A DNA stretch of 64,000 nt from assembly GCF_936916975.1 (NCBI RefSeq), contig NZ_CAKZGO010000006.1, positions 124,001-188,000 of the forward strand, given 5' to 3'. Numbering within the stretch: the stretch's first letter is position 1; every line of letters starts with the position of its first letter. Below the pieces are notes generated by a model. The model searched no databases, was not told the origin of the DNA, and worked only from the letters and a program-made list of their open reading frames with translations. This DNA is from an uncultured Dongia sp. (GTDB lineage Bacteria; Pseudomonadota; Alphaproteobacteria; Dongiales; Dongiaceae). A program made the position numbers and the translations under genes. Positions 2,279-64,000 of this stretch are shown here, one piece after another.

Positions 2279-3562
2279 ATGTTGCAGGATCAGGATCGCA
2301 TCTTCAAAAACATCTACTGCCAGGACGATTGGCGCCTGGCCGGCGCGCGCCGTCGCGGCATCTGGGACAACACCAAGGCGCTGCTCGACGTTGGTCCAGA
2401 CAAGATCATCGACGACATCAAGGCCTCCGAACTGCGCGGCCGCGGTGGCGCAGGTTTCCCGACCGGCATGAAATGGTCCTTCATGCCCAAGCAATCCGAC
2501 GGGCGTCCGTCCTACCTCGTCGTCAATGCCGACGAATCCGAGCCCGGCACCTGCAAGGATCGCGAGATCCTGCGCTTCGATCCGCATATGCTGATCGAAG
2601 GCTGCCTGATTGCCGGTTTCGCCATGCGCTGCGTCGCTGCCTATATCTACGTCCGCGGCGAGTTCTACCAGGAGGCGATGCACGTCCAGGCCGCGATCGA
2701 CGAGGCCTATGACGCCGGCCTCATCGGCAAGAACGCATCCGGCTCGGGCTACAATTTCGACGTCTTCCTGCATCGTGGCGCCGGCGCCTATATCTGCGGT
2801 GAAGAATCAGCACTCATCGAGAGCCTTGAGGGCAAGAAGGGTCAGCCGCGCCTGAAGCCGCCATTTCCGGCTGCCTGCGGTCTCTATGGTTCGCCGACCA
2901 CGGTCAACAATGTCGAGACCATCGCGGTCACGCCGACAATCCTGCGCCGCGGTCCGACCTGGTTTGCCGGTCTCGGCCGGCCCAAGAATGTCGGCACCAA
3001 GCTGTTCTGCGTGTCGGGCCATGTGAACAAGCCCTGCAACGTCGAAGAAGAGATGGGCATTCCACTGCGCGAGCTCATCGACAAGCATTGCGGCGGTGTG
3101 CGTGGTGGCTGGGACAATCTGCTGGCCGTCATCCCCGGCGGCTCGTCGGTCCCGATGCTGCCCAAGTCGATCTGCGACGACGTGCTGATGGATTTCGATT
3201 CGCTGCGCGCCGTTCAGTCGGGCCTTGGCACGGCGGCGGTCATCGTCATGGACAAGTCGACCGACCTCATCGAGGCGATCACGCGCTTTGCGCATTTCTA
3301 TATGCATGAGAGCTGCGGCCAGTGCACACCGTGCCGCGAGGGCACCGGCTGGATGTTCCGCATCATGACGCGTTTCGTGAAGGGCGATGCCGATCCTTCC
3401 GAGATCGACATGCTGCTGGAAATTTCGAAGCAGATCGAAGGTCACACGATCTGCGCACTCGGCGATGCCGCGGCATGGCCGATCCAAGGTTTGATGCGTC
3501 ATTTCCGTCCGGTGGTCGAGCAGCGCATGCGCGACTTCCGTGGCCGTCAAGCGGCCGAATAG
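2279..3562 (+). CDS. nuoF: NADH-quinone oxidoreductase subunit F
   Basis: 51-kDa subunit F of complex I: it binds NADH and FMN and passes electrons to the [4Fe-4S] cluster N3. The 427-residue protein shows the FMN/NADH glycine-rich loop [10 protein letters not shown] at residues 54-63, the second nucleotide motif [13 protein letters not shown], and the N3 ligands in [12 protein letters not shown] with the fourth Cys in HTICALGD. Length and motifs are canonical, so it should be active. It sits three bases after nuoE and 25 bases before nuoG in the same operon. Confidence 0.98.
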
Positions 3563-3587
3563 GGCTGGGGAGTAGGGATCCAAGATC

Positions 3588-5654
3588 ATGCCGAAGATGA
3601 CGATCGATGGTGTCGAGATCGAGGTGCCGGGCGGCATTACCGTCCTGCAGGCCTGCGAGCTCGCCGGCAAGGAAATCCCGCGCTTCTGCTATCACGAACG
3701 CCTGTCCGTGGCCGGCAATTGCCGCATGTGTCTCGTGGAGCAGGAAAAGGCGCCAAAGCCGGTGGCGAGCTGCGCCATGCCGGTCGCCGAAGGCATGGTG
3801 ATCAAGACCGATAGCCCGCTGGTGCAGAAGGCCCGCAAGGGCGTCATGGAATTCCTGCTGATCACCCATCCACTCGATTGCCCGATCTGCGATCAGGGCG
3901 GCGAATGCGATCTGCAGGACCAGGCCGTCGCTTTCGGCAAGAGCTTCTCGCGCTATCAGGAAGAGAAACGCGCCGTCACCGACAAGGATTTCGGCCCCCT
4001 GGTGCGGACCGAGATGACGCGCTGCATTCAATGCACGCGCTGCATCCGCTTTGCGACCGAAGTGGCCGGCGTCGAAGTGCTGGGCGCCACCTCGCGCGGC
4101 GAACACATGGAAGTCACGACCTATGTTGAAAAGGGCATAGCCTCGGAACTGTCCGGCAATCTCATCGATCTTTGCCCGGTCGGTGCGCTGACTTCGAAGC
4201 CCTACGCGTTCACCGCGCGCCCCTGGGAATTGACCAAGACGGAATCGATCGATGTGGCGGATGCGGTCGGCGTCAATATCCGCATCGATTCACGCGGTCG
4301 CGAAGTCCTGCGCGTGCTGCCGCGTCTCAATGAAGACGTGAACGAAGAATGGATGGCCGATAAGGGCCGTTTCTGGGTCGATGGCCTGAAGCGCCAACGC
4401 CTCGATCGTCCCTTCGTCCGTGAAAACGGCAAGCTCAAGCCCGCGAGCTGGGGTGAGGCGTTTGCCGCCATCGCTGCGCGCGTCAAAGGCGTTGACGGCA
4501 AGCGGATTGCCGCCATCGTCGGCGATCAATGCGATGCCGAAAGCATGTTCGCGCTCAAGGAATTGATGGCGTCGCTGGGGTCGCCCAACCTCGATTGCCG
4601 CCAGGATGGCGCAGCACTCGATGCCACCAACCGCGCCTCTTATCTTTTCAACAGCACGATTGCCGGCATTGACAAGGCCGATGTGATTTTGCTGGTCGGT
4701 ACCAATCCGCGCTGGGAAGCGCCGGTGCTGAACGCCCGTATCCGCAAGCGGCATCTCAAGGGCGGCCTCAAGGTCGCGAGCGTGGGCGCTGTCGGCGATC
4801 TCACCTATCCGGTGGAGATGCTGGGGGCAGGGGCCGAGACGCTGAGCCAGATTGCGTCGGGCGGTAACAGCTTCAGCGATGCGCTGAAGAATGCCAAGGC
4901 GCCGATGATCATCGTGGGCCAGGGTGTACTCACGCGTCCCGACGGCGCCGCGGTGCTTGGTCTGGCGCGCAAGGTGGCCGAGGCGGCCAATGTCGTGCGC
5001 GAGGGCTGGAACGGTTTCAACGTGCTGCAGACGGCTGCTGCTCGCGTCGGCGGCCTCGAACTCGGCTTCGTGCCGCAATCTGGCGGCCGTGATGTGAACG
5101 GCATCCTCGATGGTGCGCAGAAGGGCGAGATCGAGATCGTCTATCTGCTCGGTGCCGACGAGATCGATACCAACCGTCTGGGCTCCGCCTTTGTCATCTA
5201 TCAGGGTCATCACGGCGACCGTGGTGCCCATCGCGCCGACGTCGTCCTGCCCGGCGCCGCCTATACCGAGAAGGATGGCACCTATATGAACATCGAGGGC
5301 CGAGCCCAGCTGGGCCGCCTCGCGATCTTCCCGCCGGGCGATGCCAAGGCGGATTGGAGCATCCTGCGCGCACTGTCGGAATCGGTCGGCAAGAAGCTCG
5401 GCTTCGACACGATCGAACAATTGCGCCGCAAGCTCTATCAGGCCTTCCCGCGCTTCCAGCGTCTGGGGGCGATCGAGCCGGCTGCCTGGACGAGCTTCGG
5501 TGGCCAAGGCGAGGTCGGGCGCGACCAGTTCCGTCCCGCGATAGCCAATTACTACATGACCGACCCGATCAGCCGCGCCTCGGCGACGATGGCGCAGTGC
5601 ACCGAACGTTTCGTGCAGCCGGTTGCGGGCGGAAAGACGGGCACCCATGGCTGA
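3588..5654 (+). CDS. nuoG: NADH-quinone oxidoreductase subunit G
   Basis: 75-kDa subunit G, the largest peripheral-arm subunit, which carries the iron-sulfur relay from subunit F towards the quinone. The N-terminal ferredoxin domain has Cys ligands in RFCYHE, GNCRMC and ASCAMP (about residues 34-65). The middle [19 protein letters not shown] and [12 protein letters not shown] segments ligate the next clusters, and the remainder is a molybdopterin-oxidoreductase-like domain without cofactor. At 688 residues it matches the short alphaproteobacterial and mitochondrial form rather than the roughly 900-residue E. coli form. Its 3' end overlaps nuoH by eight bases. Confidence 0.98.
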
Positions 5655-6723
5655 GTTCTTCACATCGACCTTCGGGATTTATCTCGGCACCACCATCTTC
5701 ACGGTGCTGAAGATCGTTGCCATCATCCTGCCGCTGCTGTTGGCGGTTGCCTACCTGACCTTGGCCGAGCGCAAGATCATGGCGGCGATGCAGATCCGCC
5801 GCGGTCCGAACGTCGTCGGTCCCTTTGGCCTGCTGCAGCCGATTGCCGATGGCGTGAAGCTGCTGTTCAAGGAAACGATCATCCCGTCGGGCGCCAACCG
5901 TGTCGCCTTCATCGTGGCGCCGATGATCACTTTCGTGCTGTCGCTGATTTCCTGGGCGGTCATTCCGTTTGACGATGGCGTGGTGCTGGCCAACCTCAAT
6001 GTCGGCATTCTCTATCTCTTCGCCATCTCGTCGCTGGGCGTCTATGGCATCGTGCTCGCCGGCTGGGCATCGAATTCGAAATACCCGTTCCTTGGTGCCC
6101 TGCGGTCGGCTGCGCAGATGGTGTCCTACGAAGTCTCGATCGGCTTCGTGCTGGTGACGGTGCTGTTGTGCGTGGGCTCGCTCAACCTCAACGACATCGT
6201 CAGGGCGCAGGCCAATCTGTGGTTCTGCATCCCGCTGCTGCCGATGTTCATCGTGTTCTACATTTCCGGTCTTGCCGAAACCAACCGCCCGCCCTTCGAT
6301 CTGCCGGAAGCAGAATCGGAACTGGTCGCGGGCTACTTCTCGGAATACTCGGCCTTCACCTTCGCGCTGTTCTTCCTCGGCGAGTACGCCAATATCTGGA
6401 TGATGAGCGCCATGACGGCGATCCTGTTCCTCGGTGGTTGGCAGGCGCCGTTTGATATCGCGCCCTTCACCTGGATCCCCGGCTGGATCTGGTTCGCCGG
6501 CAAGGCCAGCTTCATCGCCTTCAGCTTTGTCTGGGTCCGCGCGACCTTCCCGCGCTATCGCTACGACCAGCTCATGCGCCTGGGCTGGAAAGTCTTCCTG
6601 CCGCTTTCTTTGATCATGGTAATCCTGACCGCGGGCGTTCTGCTCGCGACGGACAGCCTGCCGAAGAAGGGCACCGTCATGCCAGCCCCCGCGGTGGATA
6701 CCACCGCGCCGGCCAGCAATTGA
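5647..6723 (+). CDS. nuoH: NADH-quinone oxidoreductase subunit H
   Basis: Membrane subunit H, which links the quinone pocket to the proton-pumping arm. It has about eight membrane helices, with the conserved loop after helix 1 ([17 protein letters not shown], then [15 protein letters not shown]) and the acidic loop [20 protein letters not shown] chose the ATG giving [10 protein letters not shown] (358 residues), eight bases inside the nuoG 3' end. An in-frame ATG eight codons upstream lies deeper in nuoG and adds a charged stretch that does not look native. The C-terminal tail is Pro/Ala-rich. Confidence 0.97.
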
Positions 6724-6735
6724 GGAGCTGAACCC

Positions 6736-7224
6736 ATGTCCGCCATTAGCCGCACGCTCAACAGCTTCCTCCTCAAGGAACTGCTTTCCGGCATGGTCCT
6801 CACCTTCAGCTACCTGTTCAAGGAGAAGGTGACGATCAACTATCCCTATGAGAAGGGGCCGATCAGCCCGCGCTTCCGCGGTGAGCATGCGTTGCGCCGC
6901 TACGCCAACGGCGAAGAGCGCTGCATCGCCTGCAAGCTGTGCGAAGCGATCTGCCCGGCGCAGGCCATCACCATCGAGGCCGAGCCGCGCGATGACGGCA
7001 GCAGGCGGACGACGCGTTACGACATCGACATGACGAAATGCATCTATTGCGGCTTCTGCCAGGAAGCCTGCCCGGTCGATGCGATCGTCGAGGGACCGAA
7101 TTTCGAGTTTGCCACCGAGACTCGCGAGGAGCTGTTCTACAACAAGGACAAGCTGCTGCGGAACGGCGAGCGCTGGGAAGCGGAAATTGCCGGCAATATC
7201 GCCGCCGACGCGCCTTATCGTTGA
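6736..7224 (+). CDS. nuoI: NADH-quinone oxidoreductase subunit I
   Basis: Subunit I (TYKY), a two-[4Fe-4S] ferredoxin-like subunit carrying clusters N6a and N6b between subunits G and B. Both motifs are intact: [16 protein letters not shown] and [16 protein letters not shown], each C-x2-C-x2-C-x3-CP. The 162-residue length is standard for alphaproteobacteria. The start ATG lies 12 bases after nuoH and has a GAGG-type ribosome binding site. Confidence 0.98.
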
Positions 7225-7252
7225 TCGCGATAGGGTGGGGGAGAACAGCTAG

Positions 7253-7870
7253 ATGATCGTCGAGACCATCGCCTTTTATGTCTTTGCCGCAGTCGCCGTC
7301 GTATCGGCGCTGCTGGTGGTCGGCAACCGCAATCCGGTCTATTCGGTGCTGTTCCTGATTCTGACCTTCTTCAACGTCGCGGGCCTGTTCGTGCTGATCG
7401 GTGCCGAGTTCCTGGCGATGATGCTGGTCATCGTTTATGTCGGTGCCGTGGCCGTGCTGTTCCTTTTCGTCGTCATGATGCTCGACATCAATTTCGTCGA
7501 ACTGCGCCAGGGCTTCGTGCGCTATCTGCCGATCGGCGCTGTCGTGGGTGTCATCCTGGCCGCCGAGTTGATCTTTGTCGTCGGCAGCACGGCGCTGGGC
7601 ACCGCGACACCGGCTGCACCCACGCCGGCCATTGCCCAGGTCACCAATACCGAAGCACTCGGCAACATCATGTACACCCAGTATTTCTACCTGTTCCAGG
7701 TGTCCGGCCTCATCCTGCTGGTCGCGATGATGGGCGCCATTGTGCTGACACACCGCGAACGCGTCGGCGTCCGCCGCCAGCGTATTGCCGATCAGGTCGA
7801 CCGCAACCGTAGTTCGGTGCAGCTCACCAAGGTGAAGACCGGCGACGGCGCTTCAGGGGGTGTCAAATGA
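7253..7870 (+). CDS. nuoJ: NADH-quinone oxidoreductase subunit J
   Basis: Membrane subunit J, a small hydrophobic protein (205 residues) with about five membrane helices at the junction of complex I. Family features include the N-terminal [17 protein letters not shown] segment and the helix with [14 protein letters not shown], the site of the pi-bulge seen in structures. The stop overlaps the nuoK ATG by four bases (ATGA). The C-terminal tail is basic and cytoplasmic. Confidence 0.96.
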
Positions 7871-8178
7871 TGACGATCGGCATTCAGCATTACCTGACCC
7901 TGTCGGCGATCCTGTTCACGATCGGGATCTTCGGCATCTTCCTCAACCGCAAGAACGTCATCATCATTCTGATGTCGGTTGAATTGATGCTGCTCTCGGT
8001 CAACGTCAACCTCGTGGCGTTCTCCCATTTTCTCGGCGATCTCACCGGCCAGGTCTTTGCGATGCTGGTCCTCACGGTTGCCGCGGCTGAGGCCGCCATC
8101 GGCCTCGCCATCCTTGTGGTCTTCTTCCGGACTCGCGGCTCGATCGCCGTCGAGGACGTCAACATGATGAAGGGCTGA
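7867..8178 (+). CDS. nuoK: NADH-quinone oxidoreductase subunit K
   Basis: Membrane subunit K, homologous to MrpC, 103 residues with three membrane helices. The two conserved helix glutamates are present, in [11 protein letters not shown] and in the AEAAIGLAI stretch. Two consecutive ATG codons exist; the first overlaps the nuoJ stop (ATGA) and the second, three bases on, is equally plausible. nuoL begins one base after the stop. Confidence 0.97.
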
Positions 8179-8179
8179 C

Positions 8180-10135
8180 ATGACTCTCGACGTCGCCATC
8201 GTCGCCCTTCCGCTGCTGGGCGCTCTCATCGCCGGGATCGGCAATCGCCATATCGGCGATCATGCCGCGCAATGGATCACCTCCGGCCTCATGCTGGCCG
8301 TGATGGTCATTTCCTGGATCACTTTCTTCGACGTGACCGGTAGCGGCAACACGCGCACCACGGAACTGTTCACCTGGTTTGAGACCGGCAGCTTCCGCGC
8401 CGCTTGGGCGGTGCGCATCGATCAGCTGTCGGCCGTGATGCTGATCGTGGTGACGACCGTCTCCGCCATGGTCCATGTCTATTCCATCGGCTACATGCAT
8501 CACGACAAATCGGTGCCGCGGTTCATGGCCTATCTGTCGTTCTTCACCTTCTGCATGCTGATGCTGGTGACGGCCGACAATTTCATCCAGATGTTCTTCG
8601 GCTGGGAAGGAGTGGGCCTCAGCTCCTACCTCCTCATCGGCTTCTGGTATGACCGGCCGACCGCCAATGCGGCCGCCATCAAGGCGTTCCTGGTCAACCG
8701 CGTGGGCGATTTCGGCTTCGCGCTCGGCATTATGGGCGTCTATCTCGTCTTCAACACGGTTGAGTTCAAGCCGCTGTTCGACACGATCATCGCCGGCCAG
8801 ACGCCGCCGACCTTCAATTTCTTAGGCTATGAGGTCGACACGCTGACCGCGCTCTGCCTGCTGTTGTTCGTGGGCGCCATGGGCAAGTCGGCGCAGCTGT
8901 TCCTGCACACCTGGCTGCCGGACGCGATGGAAGGCCCGACGCCGGTGTCGGCCCTCATCCATGCGGCGACCATGGTGACCGCCGGCGTCTTCATGGTCTG
9001 CCGCCTGTCGCCGATGTTCGAATATGCGCCCTATGCCAAGGAAGTCGTGACCGTTGTCGGCGCCTCGACCGCCTTCTTCGCAGCGACGGTGGGCCTCACC
9101 CAGAACGACATCAAGCGGGTCATCGCCTATTCGACCTGTTCGCAGCTCGGCTACATGTTCTTTGCAGCTGGTGTCGGTGCCTATGGCGCCGCCATGTTCC
9201 ACCTCTTCACCCACGCCTTCTTCAAGGCGCTGCTGTTCCTGTGCGCGGGTTCGGTCATCCATGCGATGTCGGGCGAGCAGGACATGCGCAAGATGGGCGG
9301 CATCTACAAGCTCATTCCCACCACCTATACCTTGATGTGGATCGGCAACATCGCCCTGGCCGGTGTCGGTATTCCGGGCGTGTTCGGCTTTGCCGGCTTC
9401 TATTCCAAGGACAGCATCCTGGAATCGGCCTTCGCCGCGCATAGCAGTGTGGGCATGTACGCCTTCTGGCTTGGCATCATCGGTGCGGTGATGACGGCAT
9501 TCTATTCCTGGCGCCTCATTTACATGACCTTTCACAACAAGCCGCGCGCCTCGCATGACGTGATGCATCATGTCCATGAAAGCCCGTGGGTGATGCTGGC
9601 GCCGCTCTTCGTGTTGGCGGCGGGTGCCATCCTTACCGGCTTCGTCTGGCATGAGAGCTTTGTGGGCAGTGAGATGGAACATTTCTGGGGCCAGGCGATC
9701 CATTTCGCCTCAACCAACGAAGTGCCGCATCACGCCCATGATGTGCCGCTCTGGGTGAAGCTGCTGCCCTTGGCGGCCGGCCTCATCGGCATTCTCTTTG
9801 CAACCTATGCCTATCTCGTGCAGAAGGGTCTGCCCGCCGCAATCGCCGGTGCCCTCAAGCCGCTCTACCTGATGTCCTATAACAAGTGGTATTTCGACGA
9901 GCTCTATGACGCGATCTTCGTGAACCCGATCAAGGTCTTTGGCCGCTTCCTGTGGAAGAAGGGCGATGGGGCGATCGTCGATGGTGCCGTCGATGGATTT
10001 GCCTGGCTGACTGGCGAGTGGTTCGCCAAGCGGGCGAGCGCGCTGCAATCGGGCTATGTCTATCATTACGCCTTCGTCATGCTGATCGGCATCGTCGCCA
10101 TGGTCAGCTGGTACATCTTTGCCTTTGGTAAGTGA
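8180..10135 (+). CDS. nuoL: NADH-quinone oxidoreductase subunit L
   Basis: Distal antiporter-like proton pump of complex I, 651 residues with about 16 membrane helices. The proton-pumping core is recognisable by [19 protein letters not shown], by [21 protein letters not shown] and by the [16 protein letters not shown] segment. The C-terminal part contains the long lateral helix region and a final anchor helix. The start ATG lies one base after the nuoK stop, so expression is probably coupled. Confidence 0.97.
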
Positions 10136-10143
10136 GAGATTTG

Positions 10144-11664
10144 ATGAGCGGCAGCATGCCCATCCTCAGCCTGACGACCTTCCTGCCGCTTCTGGGCGCG
10201 GTGCTCATCCTTATCCTCAAGGGTGACGAGGGATCGGTCGCGCGCAACGCGCGTTACATCGCGCTGTGGACATCGCTCGTCACCTTTGCCGTTTCGCTGG
10301 TGATCTGGTTCCAGTTCGACCGGTCGTTCGTCGGCTTCCAGTTCGAGGAGAAGACGGCCTGGCTGCCGCTGCTCGGCATCAGCTATCACATGGGTGTCGA
10401 CGGTATCTCGATGACCTTCGTGATGCTCTCGACCCTGCTGACGCCGATCTGCATCCTGGCCAGCTGGGAAGCGATCGAGAAGCGGGTCAAGGAATACATG
10501 ATCGCCTTCCTCGGCCTCGAGACGCTGATGGTCGGCACCTTCTGTGCGCTTGATTTCGTCACCTTCTATATCTTCTTCGAAGCGGTCCTCATCCCGATGT
10601 ATCTAATCATCGGCATCTGGGGCGGGCCGCGGCGCGTCTATGCGTCGATCAAGTTCTTCCTGTTTACGCTGGCCGGTTCCGTGTTGATGCTGCTGGCGAT
10701 CCTTGCGATGTACAGCATCACTGGTACGGCCGACATTCCGGCGTTGATGGCCTATGGTTTCGATCCCGCCATCCAGAAATGGCTGTGGCTGGCGCTGTTC
10801 GCCTCCTTCGCAGTGAAGGTGCCGATGTGGCCGGTTCATACCTGGCTGCCGGACGCCCATGTCGAAGCGCCGACCGCGGGTTCGGTCATCCTGGCCGGTG
10901 TGCTGTTGAAGATGGGCGCCTATGGTTTCCTGCGCTTCTCCATCCCGATGCTGCCGGAGGCGTCCGCCTATTTCACGCCGTTGGTCTATGCCATGAGCGT
11001 GGTGGCGGTGATCTACACCTCGCTCATCGCGCTCGCACAGGAGGATATGAAGAAGCTCATCGCCTATTCCTCCGTGGCGCATATGGGCTTCGTGACCGCC
11101 GGCATCTTCTCGATGACCCAGGAAGGTCTCGAGGGCGCCTTGTTCCAGATGCTCTCCCACGGTGTCGTCTCGGGTGCGCTGTTCCTGTGCGTTGGCGTCA
11201 TCTATGACCGCCTGCATACCCGTGAGATTGCGCGTTACGGCGGCCTCGTGCACCGGATGCCGAAATACGCCGTGGTATTCATGATCTTCACTATGGCCTC
11301 GGTCGGTTTGCCGGGTACCAGCGGCTTCATCGGCGAGTTCCTGGTGATGGTCGGCGTGTTCAAGGACAACACCTGGGTGGCGCTGCTTATTGCGACCGGT
11401 GTGATCCTGGGTGCCGCCTACATGCTGTGGCTCTATCGCCGCATCATTTTCGGCGAGCTGGTCAAGGAAGATTTGAAGACCATGCTCGATCTTTCGTTGC
11501 GCGAGAAGGTGATCTTCGCGCCGCTCCTGCTGCTCGTGTTCTGGATGGGTATCTATCCGATCAGTTTCACCTCGATCTTCGGGCCGACGGTGACTGATTT
11601 CATCCAGGATTACGGCCCGCGCATGGAAGCGGTCGCGGCTGATCCCGCTGCGACAAATCCGTAA
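10144..11664 (+). CDS. nuoM: NADH-quinone oxidoreductase subunit M
   Basis: Second antiporter-like proton-pumping subunit of complex I, about 506 residues with 14 membrane helices. Diagnostic segments are [42 protein letters not shown] and [15 protein letters not shown] place the start at the ATG nine bases after the nuoL stop, preceded by AGTGAGAGA; a GTG twelve bases earlier overlapping nuoL and an ATG at 10156 are alternatives. nuoN follows after 18 bases. Confidence 0.96.
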
Positions 11665-11682
11665 GGCAAGGATAGTACTGCC

Positions 11683-13122
11683 ATGAATTCGTTCATCGAT
11701 CTCAACCTGGGTCTGGCCCGACCGGAGATCTTCCTGGCCATCGCCGCTTTGGCGCTGTTGGTCATCGGTGTGTCGCTGGGTGATCGCCACACGCGCCTCA
11801 TTGCCTGGGCGAGTGTTGCAGCACTTGTCATTGCTATCGTTCTGGCGATTTCAGATAAAGCGGATGGCCTGGCGTTCCATGGCCTGTTCATCGCGGATGA
11901 TTTTGCGTGCTATGCCAAGGTGCTGTCCTTTGGTGCGGCGGCGCTCGCCATCATCATGTCGCTGGACTACGCCGAGCGGGAAGGGATGGCGCGGTTCGAA
12001 TTGCCGCTGCTCATGCTGATGGCAACACTTGGCATGTCGCTGATGATCTCGGCCAATGACCTCATCTCGCTTTATGTCGGCTTGGAACTGCAGTCCTTGG
12101 CACTTTACGTCGTGGCCGCAATCAAGCGCGACACCATCAAATCGACCGAAGCAGGCCTGAAGTATTTCGTCCTGGGCGCCCTCAGTTCCGGCATGCTGCT
12201 CTATGGTTCGTCGCTCATCTACGGCTTTACGGGCTCGACCAGCTTCTCGGTCCTCGCTGCAACGCTTACCGGCGATGCCGGGCTCGGTCTCATCGTCGGT
12301 ATCGTGTTCCTGTGCGCGGGTCTCGCTTTCAAGATTTCGGCGGTGCCGTTCCATATGTGGACGCCGGACGTCTATGAAGGCGCGCCGACGCCGATCACGG
12401 CTTTCTTTGCAGCGGCGCCCAAAGTTGCTGCCATCACGCTCTTTGCCCGCGTCCTGGTCGGTCCCTTCGGCGACCTGGTCGGGCAATGGCAGCAGATCAT
12501 TGTCTTCATCTCCATCGCCTCGATGATTCTTGGCGCGGTCGCTGCGATCGGCCAGAAGAACATCAAACGCCTGATGGCTTACTCCTCGATCGGCAATGTC
12601 GGTTTCGCCCTGGTTGGTCTCGCCAGCGGCACGCAGGAAGGGGTCTCCGGCCTACTCATTTACATGGCGATCTATGTCGTCATGACGACCGGCACCTTCG
12701 CCGTGATCCTCGCCATGCGCCGTCGGGGCGAAGCGGTGGAACAGATCAGCGATCTCGCCGGCCTCAGCCGCTCGCAGCCGGGCCTTGCCTGGGCACTGGC
12801 GATCTTCATGTTCTCGATGGCCGGCATTCCGCCCTTCGCCGGCTTCTTTGGCAAGTGGTTCGTGTTCCTGGCGGCGATCCAGGCCGGGTTGAATGTCCTT
12901 GCCGTAATCGGCGTGCTCGCCAGCGTGGTGTCGGCGTTCTATTACATCCGCATCATCAAGGTGATGTTCTTCGACCAGCCGACCGAAGCCTTTGATCGGG
13001 TGACGCCAACCTTGCGGATCGTTCTGATCGCGACCGTTTTCGTCATCAGCCTGGGGTTCATCGCTGGCTCGCCGTTCTTTGATCTCTCGGCCAATGCCGC
13101 GAGCGTGCTCTTCGCGGAATGA
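11683..13122 (+). CDS. nuoN: NADH-quinone oxidoreductase subunit N
   Basis: Third antiporter-like subunit of complex I, 479 residues and about 14 membrane helices. Conserved segments include [17 protein letters not shown], the [18 protein letters not shown] loop and [16 protein letters not shown]. It is the last complex I gene here, so the visible run is nuoC to nuoN without inserted foreign genes. Its stop codon overlaps the start of birA by four bases (ATGA), which ties birA to the complex I transcript. Confidence 0.97.
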
Positions 13123-57354: not shown

Positions 57355-57498
57355 CTGAAAGGTCTGATCGTCCCTAACCCCTTATTAACCACTCCGGCAT
57401 CAAAACTGCATTGAACTTGTTGGACCGCCCGGACTCCGAATCTGGGGCGGCAGTTTTTGCCTGGAATCAGGCCCCGGGATCTGGAGCGGTTGGGCGTC

Positions 57499-59532
57499 AT
57501 GGCGGTGTTGAGCGTCAAGGAAGCGGTGGAACTGGGCGAGCGCTACGAGATTGCGCCGAGCCAGCGGCTGCCTGCCTTCGACAGCGGCATGGCCGAGGCC
57601 TATGTGGCGACAGACCGGGTCGACCCGGCGACCAAGGTCTTCTGCCTGGTCTCGCCAGGCCATCTCGCCATCCGCGGGCTGACCATCGCGCCGGCACGTA
57701 ATGCCGCCGGTGCCTATCTCATGTGGCCGGTGGCGTCGGGCATCGTTGATTGGCCGGTTGGCATCGATGGTGGCGAGGTGCTGTGGGGCCGGCGGCCGGC
57801 CTTCATCTATGCGATTCCCGCCGGCGAGAGGCTGGTCGGCGCCAATGGGCAGATGCCGCAGATGTCGGAATCGCAGCTCATCAAATCGTTCATTCAGCCG
57901 GCCATCCATCTGCTGCGCGATCTCATCCTGGTGGGTTGCCCGCACCGCGCCATCCGGCCGCAGAATCTTTTTTATCAGAGCGGCAATTCCGGCGATCTAA
58001 TGTTCGGCGAGTGCCTGGCCTCGCCGCCCGGGACCGCGCAGCCGGTGGCCTGCGAGACGGTGGACAATGCGATTTCCGATCCTGTCGGTCGCGGCGTGGG
58101 TTCGGTCGCCGACGATCTCTATGCGATCGGCGCCACGGCGCTCATGCTCTATCTGGGCCGCGATCCGGTCAGTCAGTCGACGGACGAGCAGATCATCAAC
58201 GCCAAGATCAACATGGGGTCGTTCTCGACCTTGGCCGGTGGCGAGAAACTGGCGCCAAGCCTGGCCGAGATGTTCCGTGGCCTGCTGTGCGACAAGGTCG
58301 CCGACCGCTGGACCATCAAGCATCTCGAAGGCTGGATGACCGGCGCCCATTTCAACCCGACCTTGCCCAGCATTCCGCAGCGCGCGACGCGGCCGTTGAA
58401 ATTCTGCGGTGGTGAATATCTCAACAAGCCGGCGCTGGCCCATGCCATGTCGCATCACTGGAACGAAGCCATGGTGCTGCTGACCGGCGGTGATTTCGAC
58501 AACTGGTTCAAGCGTGGCTTCGGTGACGAAAAGGCGGGCGACAAGATGCTGCGCGTGACCGGTCTCGCCAACGCCTATGGCCCGGCCTCCGGCATCCGCG
58601 ACCGCACCGTGTCGCGCTATATCATCCTGATGGGCGGTCATCTGCCGCTCTGCTACAAGGACATCCGCACCAGCCTGATGGGCATGGGCTCGATGCTGTC
58701 GCATTATTTCGAACGTTCCGAGAAGGTGCAGCAGATCGCCGAGATGATGCAGGCGCGTCTGCCCCATGCCTGGCTCGAGGAACAGGCCAATCTGCGTCCC
58801 GATCAGATGCAGCTGCGCCGCGCCTTGGAGATGATCGACAAGGTCATCGACCGGCAGGGGCCCGGCTATGGCATCGAGCGTGTGCTCTATGAGCTTGATC
58901 GCGGCACCCCCTGTAAATCGGCGCTGATCGCCGATTACTATGTGTTCACCTCGGTCGATCTGTTACCGGCCATCGATGCAGCCATTCCAGGGGCGCCCCA
59001 CGGCACGCTGCCCATGGACCGGCATATCGCCGCCTTCATTGCCGTCAACATGAAGCGCTCGATGGATAACGAGCTGCTCGGCCTTGCCAACAAGACCGAC
59101 GATATCGGCTATCGCACGGCGATCCTGCGCCTCATCGCCATCGTGCAGCGGGTCCATCAGAATTATGAACTGCCGCGCCTGGCGCAGGTGATTGTCGAGA
59201 TGCTGGAACCGGTCATCTTGGCATTCCACAACAGCGGCATGCGCGATCACATCCGCAGCGAGATCGAGAAACACGCCAAAGGCTGCCGCTTCGACGAGAT
59301 GCTGCTGCTCCTTGACCAAGACGGTGCCTTGCGCCGGGCCGATAATGACGGCTTCGCCCACGCCGTGCAGGAATTTGCCAATCTGGAGCGCGGCCGTTCC
59401 TGGCTCGCCAATGGCGGCCTCACCGAAATAACGCGCGTGCGCGGCATCGCCCAGCGCGCCGCGGCGATCACGGCGGCACTCTTCAGCAGCACGTGCGTCG
59501 CTGCCTACGGCGTCTACGCCGTGTTATTCTGA
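57499..59532 (+). CDS. Degenerate protein kinase-like membrane-anchored protein (pseudokinase)
   Basis: A 677-residue protein. Residues 15-290 resemble a bacterial Ser/Thr kinase: the catalytic loop position reads HRAIRPQN (149-156), where the Asp of HRDxKPxN is Ala, the DFG position reads MFG (168-170), and no VAIK lysine or glycine-rich loop can be placed. The DDLYAIGAT motif (205-213) of the C-lobe is conserved. Residues 300-640 are mostly helical and of unknown family. The last 24 residues form one membrane helix. A small membrane protein follows 18 bases downstream. I start at the ATG giving MAVLSVKEAV. Confidence 0.82.
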   Translation: MAVLSVKEAVELGERYEIAPSQRLPAFDSGMAEAYVATDRVDPATKVFCLVSPGHLAIRGLTIAPARNAAGAYLMWPVASGIVDWPVGIDGGEVLWGRRPAFIYAIPAGERLVGANGQMPQMSESQLIKSFIQPAIHLLRDLILVGCPHRAIRPQNLFYQSGNSGDLMFGECLASPPGTAQPVACETVDNAISDPVGRGVGSVADDLYAIGATALMLYLGRDPVSQSTDEQIINAKINMGSFSTLAGGEKLAPSLAEMFRGLLCDKVADRWTIKHLEGWMTGAHFNPTLPSIPQRATRPLKFCGGEYLNKPALAHAMSHHWNEAMVLLTGGDFDNWFKRGFGDEKAGDKMLRVTGLANAYGPASGIRDRTVSRYIILMGGHLPLCYKDIRTSLMGMGSMLSHYFERSEKVQQIAEMMQARLPHAWLEEQANLRPDQMQLRRALEMIDKVIDRQGPGYGIERVLYELDRGTPCKSALIADYYVFTSVDLLPAIDAAIPGAPHGTLPMDRHIAAFIAVNMKRSMDNELLGLANKTDDIGYRTAILRLIAIVQRVHQNYELPRLAQVIVEMLEPVILAFHNSGMRDHIRSEIEKHAKGCRFDEMLLLLDQDGALRRADNDGFAHAVQEFANLERGRSWLANGGLTEITRVRGIAQRAAAITAALFSSTCVAAYGVYAVLF

Positions 59533-59550
59533 TGGAAAGGAGGGGGACAG

Positions 59551-60051
59551 GTGGCCAGCAATAGCGACGCGAACGTCAAGGCATCCGGTCTTGGTGTGAA
59601 GCCCTGGGTCCTCATCACGCCGGTCCTGCTCATCGGCCTGGTGTTCTTGCCGAGCAGTGCCGTGATCGCCGCAGGCATGTTGCCGACGATCGTCGCGCGC
59701 GTGGTAGACACGTCCCCCGGCCACCGGCTCTCACTTACCGTGGCGTCGTTCAATTTTGTCGGCTGTCTCTATTTCCTCAATCGCATCTGGGCGCTTGGTC
59801 ACAGTGTCAGTGATATTCCGATCGTGCTCGGTGACAGCTTCGGCTGGCTCGCGGCCCTGGTCGGCGCCGGCATGGGTTGGGTTGTCTTCGGCAGCATGCC
59901 GTCCATCATCGCCCAAATCGCCCGCACCCAGACCGCCGTGCGTCTGCGCCGCATCACCGGCGATCAGGACCGCCTGGTCAAGGAATGGGGCGAATCCGTC
60001 CGCGGCATCTACGGCGTGCAAGTGGCGGTGAAGGAAGAGGGCGAGGAGTAA
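59551..60051 (+). CDS. Small membrane protein paired with the pseudokinase
   Basis: A 166-residue protein starting at GTG with a strong AAAGGAGG upstream. Three hydrophobic stretches appear at about residues 20-45, 62-85 and 95-115, followed by a cytoplasmic basic/acidic tail ending KEEGEE. I recognise no family. It lies 18 bases behind the pseudokinase gene, so they are co-transcribed and may form a complex; the pseudokinase has its own C-terminal membrane helix. No function can be assigned. Confidence 0.75.
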   Translation: MASNSDANVKASGLGVKPWVLITPVLLIGLVFLPSSAVIAAGMLPTIVARVVDTSPGHRLSLTVASFNFVGCLYFLNRIWALGHSVSDIPIVLGDSFGWLAALVGAGMGWVVFGSMPSIIAQIARTQTAVRLRRITGDQDRLVKEWGESVRGIYGVQVAVKEEGEE

Positions 60052-60411
60052 AGTAGCTGCGGCCGGCCAGCCTCACTCCAAATCGTCATGGTCGGCGAAG
60101 GCCGACCACCCACGAGTTACTTTCCGTTACTCGAAGAAATCCTCATCGCTCCGCGCCAGTCCAATCAGCCCACTCGGTTTGGGTTCGTTAGTTTTGTGAG
60201 CAATAGATCTATGCAAGCCGCAGTCTAGCTGAGGCAAACAATGGAATTCTGCGCAAGTATCAGGATTTTCGAGTGCGGCCTCTCTCTAGTATGAAAATCC
60301 TAATCGCAATTCGGAAAGAATGGAGCTCAGCCCGGCTCGTGGACCAAGATTTGACGGCGACTGCCCTCTCCCCTAGCGTTGGAACAACTCATAGGGGAAA
60401 TGAGGTTGGGG
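60052..60411 (+). other. Gene-free stretch with REP-like palindrome and protease promoter
   Basis: 360 bases without a gene. The left part has a REP-like palindrome (described separately). The right part contains TTGACG at 60351 and TAGCGT at 60374, 17 bases apart, as a promoter candidate for the protease. Between them the DNA is A/T-richer than the surroundings and holds no open frame with a ribosome binding site. Confidence 0.6.
60082..60120 (+). repeat. REP-like intergenic palindrome
   Basis: ATCGTCAT followed by GGTCGGC-GAAG-GCCGACC (60090-60107) and ACCCACGAG resembles the widespread alphaproteobacterial palindrome with the frame CGTCATGG...CCATCCACGA. Only one copy lies in this window, so repetition elsewhere in the genome is inferred from general knowledge of such elements. 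Confidence 0.5.
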
Positions 60412-61956
60412 ATGTTCAGTTTGCGCGCTTGTGCGGTACTGCTTCTGCCTATTGTGCTCGGGGGGTGCTGGGAAGCAGTGGTGATCGATCTGGGTGGTCG
60501 TCTAGTAATCGCCGGCGTCGCAGCCATTGCCGACGCGGCCACGGATGACAGCCCAAGCACACCGTCAGCGTCAAATGCCACTGCGGCGCCGGACAAATAC
60601 TGCCTGAAGGGACGTAGCGCGCAGGGCTATCAGGCGCGCAACGGCAAATGCGAGACTGGCGATCAGGCGATTACTTCGGCCCAGTATTATGCGCCCAATA
60701 TTGATCGGCAGAAGCTGGCGGCGAGCGTCGAAGCAGCTACCTACTGCCATGATTCAAAGCTGCGCATTGCTTACACGGCCGCCAGCGGCGCCTGCCGCAA
60801 CGCCGACGTCAAGATTAGCAAGGGTGAATACGATGCGCAGCGTGCGGCGCGTGAGGCGGAGAAAAACAAGCCAGTGATTCTGTCGGCATTCTGCTCGCCG
60901 GCCGCCGATACGACTCCCTATGAAGCGTTGGATGGAAAGTGCGCGGCAGGGCATCGCAAGATCAGCGAGGAGCAATATCGGCATGATAAGGCCGATATTC
61001 ATAACGCCCTAGCGAAGGGCGAACTATATTGTCTAGATCAGAAATTTGGCCTGGCCTATCAGGCAAAGAATGGCCCGTGCGTCGGATCTGACCGCCGCGT
61101 CTCGCGGGCCGAGTTTGACGATATTCGGACAAAATCCGAGCCAACGAAGAAGCAGGTAGCTGACAAGAGCCCGCCTATACCTTCTGGCAAACAAGAAGCG
61201 GCCCAAAAGAAAGATCCACCAGCACAGATTAAGTCACCAGTTCAGGAAGCGGCTATGGCACCGGTATTGCCCGGAAAGAAAGCCGAGCCGGTGATCGCGG
61301 CGCCTGCCCAACCGGTCGAGCCCGTCTTCAGCCTGCCGCCTATACCGACTTCGGCCAAGCCGACCCAGAGCGGGACAATGTTCTTCGTCAACCAAGACGG
61401 CTACGCGATCACGAATCACCACGTTGTAGAAGGTTGCAAGTGGATCGCCTATCCCGCCGAGGACGGGATGCGGCCCGGGCTGGTGCTAGATTCTGACGCA
61501 GATATCGATTTGGCGCTCATTCGCACAGAGTTAATCGACACCCCGAGTGCACGCTTGGCAAAGGACACGCCTGAGGTTGGTTCGCCATCGTATGTTGTGG
61601 GCTATCCGTTGCTCGGGACGCTGCTCGATATCAACATCACTGATGGGATCGTCGCATCGCTTAAAGGGCCGGGAGGCCATCCGCGCTATCTGCAGACGAC
61701 CGCTCCTATGCAGCATGGGAACTCCGGCGGTCCCGTCTTTGGCGAAGATGGGGCAGTCATTGGCGTGGCAGTTGGCCGCATTGAAGAAGACGCCAGTCAG
61801 AATGTGAACTTCGCGATCAAAACCTCGGAACTGTTGGTATTTCTCTCCGAAAACAAGTTGGCGCCACATTTTCAAACTTCGTCGAAGACAAAGAAGCCTC
61901 AGCAGATAGTGAAGGCGGCGCAGGAGTTTGTGTTTCCGTTGTTGTGCATGAACTGA
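60412..61956 (+). CDS. Lipoprotein trypsin-like serine protease with four Cys-x15-Cys repeats
   Basis: A 514-residue protein. A signal sequence ending in lipobox IVLGGC (Cys19) predicts lipid anchoring. Four repeats of about 32 residues each hold two Cys separated by exactly 15 residues (64/80, 112/128, 161/177, 207/223), a GxC motif and an acidic/aromatic tail. A Pro/Lys-rich linker (240-315) leads to a protease domain with His337 in TNHHV, Asp366 in DIDLALI and Ser438 in GNSGGP. No PDZ is seen. Start: ATG with GAGG five bases upstream. The C-terminal tail ends LLCMN. Confidence 0.85.
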
Positions 61957-62017
61957 GTAGATCGGGCGCCGCTATTCATGCCCTCGCATTAGCCCGCTAT
62001 ATCGCGCAGAGAAGTAG

Positions 62018-62917
62018 TCAGTTCTTAGGTGTCAAGAAGTAGATGGGAGTTAGAGGTAGGCGCGCCCTTGCTGAATCGCTGAGATGCGCGAAGTGCTGCG
62101 TCCATAGATCGAATAGCCTTTCAGAGTCGATCAAAGTGATCTGACGTCTTTCCTGTGAACGTGCAAAATCTTCGGCATCACGAGTGAAGCCGGCAGTAGA
62201 AACGAATAGGCCCACATCGTGGTCATTGACGATAGCCAAGAACGACTTCAGCCCATCTTTATCGACCTTTTGCGCGACCCTCTTAACCTGTACTTTGATC
62301 CGAGGTGGTTTTGCGCCGAGTGGATCAGTGTAGGCGATAATGTCGACACCGCCGTCCTTACCGGGCGGGGATACCCAAGACACATGATAACCCATAGCCC
62401 GCAAGAGATCCGCAACAAGATCCTGAAACTCGTAGGGTGGCATATTGCTCAAATGCCGTGATATCTCGGCCCATGCTTGCTCTTCTGCTTGCTCGAAGGT
62501 TATCGCTGCCGAACTTGATTCATTTGGCCCATCGTCAGAAGGAACGGTGTCACTATCTTCCTTACTAGGTTGGCTAGCTTTCCAAACACGATAAAGGCGT
62601 ACGGCTTCCTTGTAGAAGGCTTCTGGGTCCCTGAACGCCTTGTAGGCGCTTAATCCAGCGTCTGTGGCAAACCAAGTCCCCTTATGCTTCGTCAGCCAGC
62701 CCGCCTTGGAACAATCAACTGTGGCAAATCTTACGATTTTTTCGAATCTGCGAGCTCCTGTTGACTCGTAGGTTCCTGCTTCATATTCGCTCAGCGTTAC
62801 TGCATCGACGAGCTGCTGCAGTGCTACCCGCGCCGGCAGGCCATCGGGGTGCTTTTCTAAGATCGCAAACAGCGCGCGAAGAAGTTCTCCGGTTCTTCTG
62901 CGGGTGATTTCTGCCAT
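62018..62917 (-). CDS. Mrr-type restriction endonuclease family protein
   Basis: A 299-residue protein. The N-terminal winged-helix Mrr_N domain (residues 1-95) includes RRFEKIVRFATVDCSKAGW. The C-terminal Mrr_cat nuclease domain (155-275) has Glu163, Asp192 in GKDGGVDIIAY and the QVK motif (210-212), giving a complete PD-(D/E)xK site. Mrr enzymes cleave methylated DNA; this one may do so or act in DNA stress. No methyltransferase is adjacent. I start at the ATG with GGGAG nine bases upstream. The gene has lower GC than its surroundings, which suggests horizontal transfer. Confidence 0.9.
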   Translation of the reverse strand: MAEITRRRTGELLRALFAILEKHPDGLPARVALQQLVDAVTLSEYEAGTYESTGARRFEKIVRFATVDCSKAGWLTKHKGTWFATDAGLSAYKAFRDPEAFYKEAVRLYRVWKASQPSKEDSDTVPSDDGPNESSSAAITFEQAEEQAWAEISRHLSNMPPYEFQDLVADLLRAMGYHVSWVSPPGKDGGVDIIAYTDPLGAKPPRIKVQVKRVAQKVDKDGLKSFLAIVNDHDVGLFVSTAGFTRDAEDFARSQERRQITLIDSERLFDLWTQHFAHLSDSARARLPLTPIYFLTPKN

Positions 62918-63226
62918 GTTTGATTGCTCCCTGATGCGTATATGCAATCTAAACTTACCCAGGTATAGCTCGGGGAGCAACGAGGACGATTCCGTATGTT
63001 TCGTCGAGAATCCTAAAGTTGGCCGCGGCGTTAGCTTTTTATGCCGATTAGACAGTGAGGCAATGCGATGCTGCAGTCGCTAAAGGCACTCAGTCACGCT
63101 CAGATCGTGATCTCCACCTGAAGTGGAGACGTCGATGGAAGCGCTACTTACCTCACTCCAACTAAAAACCCGCCCTCGGTATCGAGGGCGGGTTGATGTC
63201 AGTCTAAAACTATATCCATCGACGCT
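62918..63226 (-). other. Gene-free region between the Mrr gene and rpoH
   Basis: 309 bases. It contains the Mrr leader, a perfect 7-bp hairpin (TCTCCAC-CTGAA-GTGGAGA, 63111-63129), and the rpoH terminator. No open frame with coding character is visible. The plus-strand frame at 63123 is a shadow of rpoH. Confidence 0.6.
63163..63194 (-). terminator. Rho-independent terminator of rpoH
   Basis: On the minus strand a perfect 12-bp stem, AACCCGCCCTCG with CGAGGGCGGGTT around a 4-base loop, is followed by TTTTTAG. It lies 33 bases after the rpoH stop and is bipartite enough to act weakly on the plus strand too. Confidence 0.9.
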
Positions 63227-64000
63227 TTACGCCATCTCGCCGATCAGCTTCTGGTCGATCGCCTGTTTGCGGATCGCGCGTTGGATCTTGTCGAAGGCGC
63301 GAACCTCAATCTGGCGGACGCGTTCGCGGCTGATGCCGAACTCGGTCGAGAGATCCTCTAGCGTGGTCGGCTCATCTTTGAGGCGGCGCTCGACCAGGAT
63401 CTTGCGCTCGCGCGGGGTGAGCGAAAGCATCGCCTTGTCGAGCAGTTTTTTCCGCATGCCGAATTCCTGGTCGTCGGCGACGCGGGTTTCCTGGCTCTCG
63501 GTCTCGTCGACCAGCCAATCCTGCCACTCGCCCTCGCCATCGATGCGCAAGGGGGCGTTCAGTGAATGATCCGGCGCCATGAGGCGACGGTTCATGTTGA
63601 TCACGTCCTCTTCCGAGACCTTTAGGCGCGTCGCCACTTCGGTGACGTTCTCCGGCGTCATGTCGCCTTCTTCCAGCGCCTTGATCTGGCCTTTGACGCG
63701 GCGCAGGTTGAAGAACAGCTTCTTCTGCGACGCGGTCGTGCCGATCTTCACCAGCGACCATGAATGCAGGATGTATTCCTGGATGGCCGCGCGAATCCAC
63801 CACATGGCATAGGTGGCCAGGCGGAAGCCGCGGTCCGGATCGAAGCGCTTCACGGCCTGCATCAGGCCGACATTGCCCTCGGAGATGACTTCAGACATGG
63901 GCAGGCCATAGCCGCGATAGCCCATGGCGATCTTTGCCACGAGCCGCAGATGGCTGGTCACCATGCGGTGTGCCGCTTCCGGGTCCTGATGTTCTTCCCA
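63227..64000 (-). CDS. rpoH: RNA polymerase sigma-32 factor (5' end cut by window)
   Basis: Heat-shock sigma factor. About 257 C-terminal residues are visible out of roughly 295. Region 2 includes GLMQAVKRFDPDRGFRLATYAMWWIRAAIQEYI, and the RpoH box QKKLFFNLRR is present and distinguishes it from RpoD and RpoS. Region 4 ends with SLTPRERKILVERRLKDE and ISRERVRQIEVRAFDKIQRA. The frame stays open to base 64000, where the start lies beyond the window. A terminator follows the gene. The neighbouring accessory genes are on the other side of that terminator. Confidence 0.96.
   Translation of the reverse strand, partial: WEEHQDPEAAHRMVTSHLRLVAKIAMGYRGYGLPMSEVISEGNVGLMQAVKRFDPDRGFRLATYAMWWIRAAIQEYILHSWSLVKIGTTASQKKLFFNLRRVKGQIKALEEGDMTPENVTEVATRLKVSEEDVINMNRRLMAPDHSLNAPLRIDGEGEWQDWLVDETESQETRVADDQEFGMRKKLLDKAMLSLTPRERKILVERRLKDEPTTLEDLSTEFGISRERVRQIEVRAFDKIQRAIRKQAIDQKLIGEMA

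Follow-up and report, generated by a model that had tools for sequence, protein, structure and literature searches.

A conserved pseudokinase and membrane protein gene pair of Alphaproteobacteria as a candidate non-catalytic complex of the inner membrane

Many eukaryotic pseudokinases regulate active kinases or phosphatases allosterically. Bacterial pseudokinases are recognised yet hardly studied, and a 2025 review describes seven bacterial families of unknown function (PMC12599244). As described there, EssB/YukC is a membrane-anchored, non-catalytic part of the type VII secretion machinery of Firmicutes with degraded kinase motifs, and the pseudokinase domain of MviN (ActPs3) in Actinobacteria is membrane-associated and recruits another protein. 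The CP1 pseudokinases are portrayed in the same review as free of membrane segments.

Here, we describe a gene for a pseudokinase, K, and the gene for its membrane protein partner, M, in a window of 64,000 nucleotides (the whole stretch of DNA analysed) from an uncultured Dongia sp. The features discussed are collected in Table 1. The closest named relative of the window is a Dongia mobilis MAG (85% identity). No recognised description of the K family was found in listings of the literature, where it may be mentioned without a name, for example in a published 42-family classification. The K frame starts with ATG, and an in-frame TTG at 57457 would extend the protein to 691 aa. The short gap between the two genes and the strong ribosome binding site of M, both pointed out in the preliminary description, are confirmed.

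Table 1. Features of the K-M locus; positions are those of the window, residue numbers those of K
Feature	Positions	Strand	Basis or remark
K, pseudokinase of 677 aa with a kinase-like domain, a helical region and a probable C-terminal membrane anchor	57499..59532	+	
Kinase-like domain, about residues 1-299	57499..58395	+	family profile against solved kinases
beta3 stretch VFCLV (47-51), Val51 where the VAIK Lys is expected	57637..57651	+	
Catalytic loop HRAIRPQN (149-156), Ala151 at the place of the catalytic Asp, Asn156 retained	57943..57966	+	
MFG (168-170), just before the DFG equivalent	58000..58008	+	
DFG equivalent Glu-Cys-Leu (171-173)	58009..58017	+	alignment with active relatives
Helix-F motif DDLYAIGAT (205-213), structural Asp206 retained	58111..58137	+	
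Post-kinase region, residues 300-640	58396..59418	+	no significant Pfam match
Conserved patch GYGIERVLYELDRGTPCKS (456-474)	58864..58920	+	conservation in 76 homologs
Hydrophobic C-terminus (659-677), probable anchor, borderline hydropathy	59473..59529	+	
AGGAGG ribosome binding site of M	59538..59543	+	7 bases 5' of GTG
M, membrane protein partner of 166 aa, GTG start, 18 bases after K	59551..60051	+	
rpoH, convergent with K-M, runs off the window	63227..64000	-	rpoH_proteo 325.8 bits, cut-off 323.1

Judged by profile homology, K is a kinase-related protein. On its own it scores 13.8 bits (E=0.039) against Pfam Pkinase (PF00069), under the curated cut-off of 31.7. A family profile built from 43 homologs finds solved kinases in the PDB, with a best E of 3.1e-13 and 1260 distinct sequences at E<=1; the best 60 of these 1260 matches align within profile positions 58-312. 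Pkinase is matched at E<=0.1 by 37 of the 43 profile members (best 8.8e-12). The kinase fold proposed in the preliminary description is thus supported by homology; the AlphaFold model of K, made from an input of two sequences (the window protein and L031), has a pLDDT of 31.5. Against NCBIfam models, the kinase stretch of K reaches 29.7 bits for the class IV lanthionine synthetase LanL (cut-off 650) and 12.2 bits for MAD6 (cut-off 460).

Among the matches listed for 299 genomes of the phylum, sorted by E, those covering most of the K profile are all from the class Alphaproteobacteria. Outside this class but within the phylum, three kinases that are active to judge by their motifs (L080, L081 and L082) match the profile with E of 5.6e-29 to 7.2e-33; unlike K, they have retained HRDIKPGN, DFG and the beta3 Lys. 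The post-kinase stretch of K weakly matches L081 (E 1.8e-7) and L080 (1.4e-5) in a search of four targets, and residues 450-640 have no match in any of the three. The simplest reading of these sequences is that K descended from an active kinase of this sort. On L082, the K-related active kinase is clustered with PP2C, FHA, AAA+ ATPase and FGE-sulfatase-type genes (3298-12112). Phages yielded no relative of K, and short-pattern scans of viral contigs for M and for one K homolog were negative.

K shares with canonical Hanks-type Ser/Thr kinases (PF00069; BRSK2, MAPKAPK2 and PknB in the PDB) the His and Asn of the catalytic loop, the helix-F Asp and the helix-I Arg. Residues were counted in 76 homologs, i.e. 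44 plus 32 added ones, two of them from Azospirillum; the added homologs are segments of at least 200 residues at E<=1e-60, some that were split by contig ends or not fetched being omitted. His149 is kept in 67, Asn156 in 72, Asp206 in all 76 and Arg270 in 75, and we take the roles of these four residues to be those they have in kinases. The C-lobe motif DDLYAIGAT is retained, as the preliminary description stated. Unlike canonical kinases, the K family lacks the catalytic Asp and the beta3 Lys, has mostly Glu/Asp-Cys-x at the place of DFG and does not keep the Glu of APE. At position 151, Asp is found in none of the 76 (A 37, S 12, N 9, G 8, others), so that the loss read from the HRAIRPQN loop extends to the whole family. 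The VAIK Lys was likewise correctly described as lost: position 51, at or next to which the Lys of the active relatives falls, holds Lys in one homolog and Arg in none. That one homolog is L125, from genome G020.

The third defect that had been proposed, an MFG in which the Asp of DFG is missing, does not stand. Both hmmalign and MAFFT place the DFG Asp of all three active relatives on residue 171; the GDFG of two of them aligns with G170-E171-C172-L173, and the third fits with A for G. The same register is seen in four out of five printed alignments with PDB kinases (BRSK2 and MAPKAPK2, twice each), MK3 alone giving 168-170. MFG, three residues too early, is ruled out as the DFG site. Position 171 is acidic in 64 of the 76 homologs (E 36, D 28, P 7, Q 5); in the window protein it is Glu, and the Phe and Gly of DFG are both lost. 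The homologs L031, L032 and L033 have Asp here, so the Glu of the window may be recent. Glu186 was considered as the APE Glu and ruled out, since the alignment puts that Glu at 194, which is not conserved (D 18, E 7 of 76). Compared with the active relatives, K lacks about 8 residues of the activation segment.

K was called triple-defective; two catalytic residues are indeed lost, and the third site is altered with its metal-binding position mostly still acidic. The beta3 Lys, the HRD Asp and the DFG Asp of active Ser/Thr kinases are all missing from the window K. With the catalytic Asp and the beta3 Lys absent, K should not phosphorylate, which supports its reading as a pseudokinase, and phosphotransfer has very probably been lost. 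To judge from the alignments, both metal-binding positions (156 and 171) mostly remain in the family.

By defining residues, as these are given in the review, K fits none of four described families. In the GLW pseudokinases of Proteobacteria, GLW replaces HRD, whereas no K homolog has Gly at 149. ActPs2 combines beta3 Lys to Arg with HRD Asp to Asn, substitutions present at 51 and 151 in 0 and 9 of the 76 K homologs; DLHK retains the catalytic Asp that K has lost throughout. ActPs3, to which MviN belongs, has a loop of the Lsidhpsr type in place of HRAIRPQN and is also defined by a deletion in the activation loop; the activation segment of K is shorter by comparison with its active relatives. 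In its proposed mode, K is most like EssB/YukC or MviN, with no ground in these descriptions to file it with either. The likeness to EssB/YukC lies in membrane attachment, degraded motifs and a non-catalytic role, which for K is a proposal; unlike EssB/YukC as described, K has a long post-kinase region and the partner M. No type VII secretion genes were seen among the window neighbours scanned.

The strongest signal specific to the K family lies beyond the kinase domain, in a patch at residues 456-474 with the pattern G456-x-G-x-E-R-x-x-Y-...-C-x-S474. Here Tyr464 is kept in 76, Cys472 in 75, Ser474 in 74, Glu460 in 71 and Arg461 in 70 of the 76 homologs. The preliminary description spoke of an unknown helical region after the kinase domain; residues 300-640 indeed have no significant Pfam match, but the helices appear solely in the low-confidence model of K. 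A Pfam scan and a profile search against the PDB found no catalytic domain in these residues, and their internal repeats reach only E of about 0.1-0.2 outside overlapping stretches. The hydrophobic C-terminus that had been read as a single membrane helix is present, but its strength is borderline: the best 19-residue hydropathy mean of the window K, at 659-677, is 1.68. No stretch above 1.7 occurs in four Dongia-clade K proteins, against at least one somewhere in the other 40 of 44. From its sequence, the C-terminal helix is a probable membrane anchor. Among four congeners, dN/dS (simple Nei-Gojobori) lies between 0.13 and 0.39 for K and between 0.24 and 0.61 for M, with dS of 0.64-0.87. Both genes are thus under purifying selection and are not decaying.

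K and M form a conserved gene pair, though not an absolute one. The same 190 genomes of the class were surveyed for both, K at E<=1e-30 and M at E<=1e-3. K is found in 67 (as a single match in 59) and M in 70; all 67 K genomes encode M, and in 63 it is the gene next to K. There are 69 adjacent same-strand K-M pairs, with a gap between profile matches of -3 to 191 bases (median 31). The four K genomes without adjacency (G112, G151, G031 and G171) are 63-81% complete. M occurs without K in G032 (completeness 84) and G046 (75), and as a weak match (6e-5) in G004, where the frame was judged spurious and rejected. Second K copies without an adjoining M are present in G135, G096 and G128. Extra lone copies of M number three each in G014 and G147 (L089-L094) and one in G122; in G014 and G147, one copy per genome lies in a stretch where the gene finder made no call, and no common K or other kinase partner was seen near the copies. 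The expectation that the pair would be conserved in other genomes is thus borne out, and the idea that the two genes never co-occur elsewhere fails. Nor is the locus peculiar to this genome: the two genes are an old pair, under selection and present in many alphaproteobacterial families.

The protein distances of K and M are correlated after removal of the purA distances (partial r 0.42, 0 of 2000 permutations, n=32) or the rpoH distances (partial r 0.38, 6 of 2000 permutations, n=26), values that may be inflated because purA and rpoH are probably slower genes. We regard this correlation as support for the pairing, not as proof. By hydropathy, M has a single strong hydrophobic stretch at about 13-50 as well as two that are weaker. 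Its positive charges (K+R per sequence, 45 sequences) average 4.5 at the N-end, 2.4 in the first loop, 1.0 in the second loop and 5.5 at the C-end, which suggests that both ends lie in the cytoplasm. The AlphaFold model of M has a pLDDT of 46.2.

From these data we infer the binding, topology, anchoring, docking, client and pathway of the pair as follows. K and M may form a two-protein docking complex of the inner membrane in which K works without phosphotransfer, a reading to which we give a probability of just under one half (about 0.48). The kinase fold and the following 340 residues of K would lie in the cytoplasm, with the C-terminal helix and M tying them to the membrane; M itself probably has both ends on the cytoplasmic side. 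Docking surfaces for a cytosolic client would be provided by the altered kinase cleft and by the G-x-G-x-E-R-x-x-Y...C-x-S patch, and a metal or a ligand may still be bound in the cleft. The docking complex is supported by the relation of K to kinases, its residue losses, the pairing with M, the distance correlation, selection, and the 42 of 67 K genomes in which no other Pkinase match was found. Against it count the imperfect pairing and the borderline anchor in the clade of the window. Moreover, the retention of Asn156 and of an acid at 171 is more in keeping with the binding of a metal or a nucleotide than with pure scaffolding, and the DFG register at 171 makes docking less likely while favouring the two alternatives that follow.

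K could be another kind of enzyme, with a kinase cleft re-used as in SidJ and SelO or with an active site at the Glu/Arg/Tyr/Cys/Ser patch. The mostly kept metal-binding positions and the nearly invariant patch agree with this, but the beta3 Lys and the catalytic Asp are gone from practically the whole family, and residues 300-640 contain no detected catalytic domain. SidJ, as described in the review, re-uses the ATP-binding Lys along with the metal-binding Asp (PMC12599244). We consider such an enzyme unlikely. The same metal-site residues, together with a membrane partner in every K genome, would suit a sensor whose cleft takes up a metal-nucleotide, a lipid or a metabolite as ligand and which signals via M. 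The loss of the beta3 Lys and the little extracytoplasmic sequence predicted in M speak against it and make a sensor rather improbable.

Whether K regulates an active Ser/Thr kinase or phosphatase allosterically bears on the kinase content of its carriers. With K's own match set aside (hand count), another Pkinase match at E<=1e-10 is found in 25 of 67 K genomes versus 29 of 123 genomes without K; in the genome of the window, the single such match is a fragment at the edge of a contig. At E<=1e-3, 11 of 20 chosen genomes have matches besides K, four have K only and five have none. One active relative outside the class adjoins PP2C and FHA genes. These observations would agree with a regulator, but the 42 carriers that have no other match, congeners G037 and G165 included, make K unlikely to exist for regulating a kinase, at a threshold that can miss divergent kinases, as it mostly misses K itself. 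PP2C was found in only three of the eight K genomes among 21 searched, and the genome scans gave no clear tie of K to active kinases or PP2C. Allosteric regulation is thus distinctly improbable.

It is very unlikely that K-M is part of a secretion apparatus. EssB/YukC is of the same general kind, a membrane pseudokinase with a non-catalytic role according to the review, and a second K copy adjoins TssA/TssM-type genes in G135 (L130) and their homologs in G469 (L131). However, such neighbours are missing in the same-genus G470 and G471 (L132, L133) and beside the second copy of G096, and the main copy adjoins rpoH even in small genomes (e.g. G101, 2.0 Mb; G115, 1.9 Mb). A link to type VI secretion was treated as coincidence, two of four same-genus genomes having these neighbours. 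A decaying, functionless kinase, compatible with the two lost catalytic residues and the altered DFG, is refuted as far as sequence allows by the dN/dS of K, the near-invariant residues across 76 homologs, the conserved partner and the lack of internal stops among the matches listed.

It is a tentative possibility that many Alphaproteobacteria share K-M as a core membrane machine that has not been described before. Its kinase lineage would have lost phosphotransfer early, kept its metal site, become tied to M and been inherited at the purA-rpoH locus, also in small genomes with no other detected Hanks-type kinase; its housekeeping task there would be carried out through docking, or through a new reaction, via the cleft or the unique C-terminal region. 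The family, found in 67 of 190 class genomes, has a constant partner and in many cases a constant locus, and is present in cultivable Azospirillum. As many carriers have no other detected Hanks-type kinase, a K deletion would probe the role of a kinase fold where kinase signalling is absent.

The locus was compared in 45 cases, some cut by contig ends and some second copies. In 30 of them, purA is upstream at a distance of at most 1.1 kb and on the same strand; rpoH, a core gene of heat-shock control, is downstream and convergent in 26 (at most 1.1 kb away in 23), and neither was found in eight. The chromosomal position of the pair is an old one. Family models confirmed the order serC-serA-hisZ-purA-K-M-rpoH on L058, with hisZ below its own cut-off, and an RluA-type gene past rpoH on L033. 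The adjacency to rpoH may be mere inherited gene order. In Azospirillum thermophilum (NZ_CP029356), the order is hisZ, purA, DEW08_RS23880 (K), DEW08_RS23885 (M, annotated as hypothetical) and rpoH. This K has the loop HGAIRPTN and ECV at the DFG place, and its public name 'serine/threonine protein kinase' is probably wrong.

In the window, purA lies 7.5 kb and hisZ 8.8 kb upstream of K, and rpoH 3.7 kb downstream. We read this arrangement as the ancestral K-M locus loosened by insertions. The genes on the purA side include those of a DUF900 hydrolase, a DUF992 protein and a flavodoxin-fold protein. The interval between M and rpoH encodes, at 60379-62980, a trypsin-like protease, preceded by Cys-containing repeats recognised by eye, and an Mrr-type endonuclease.
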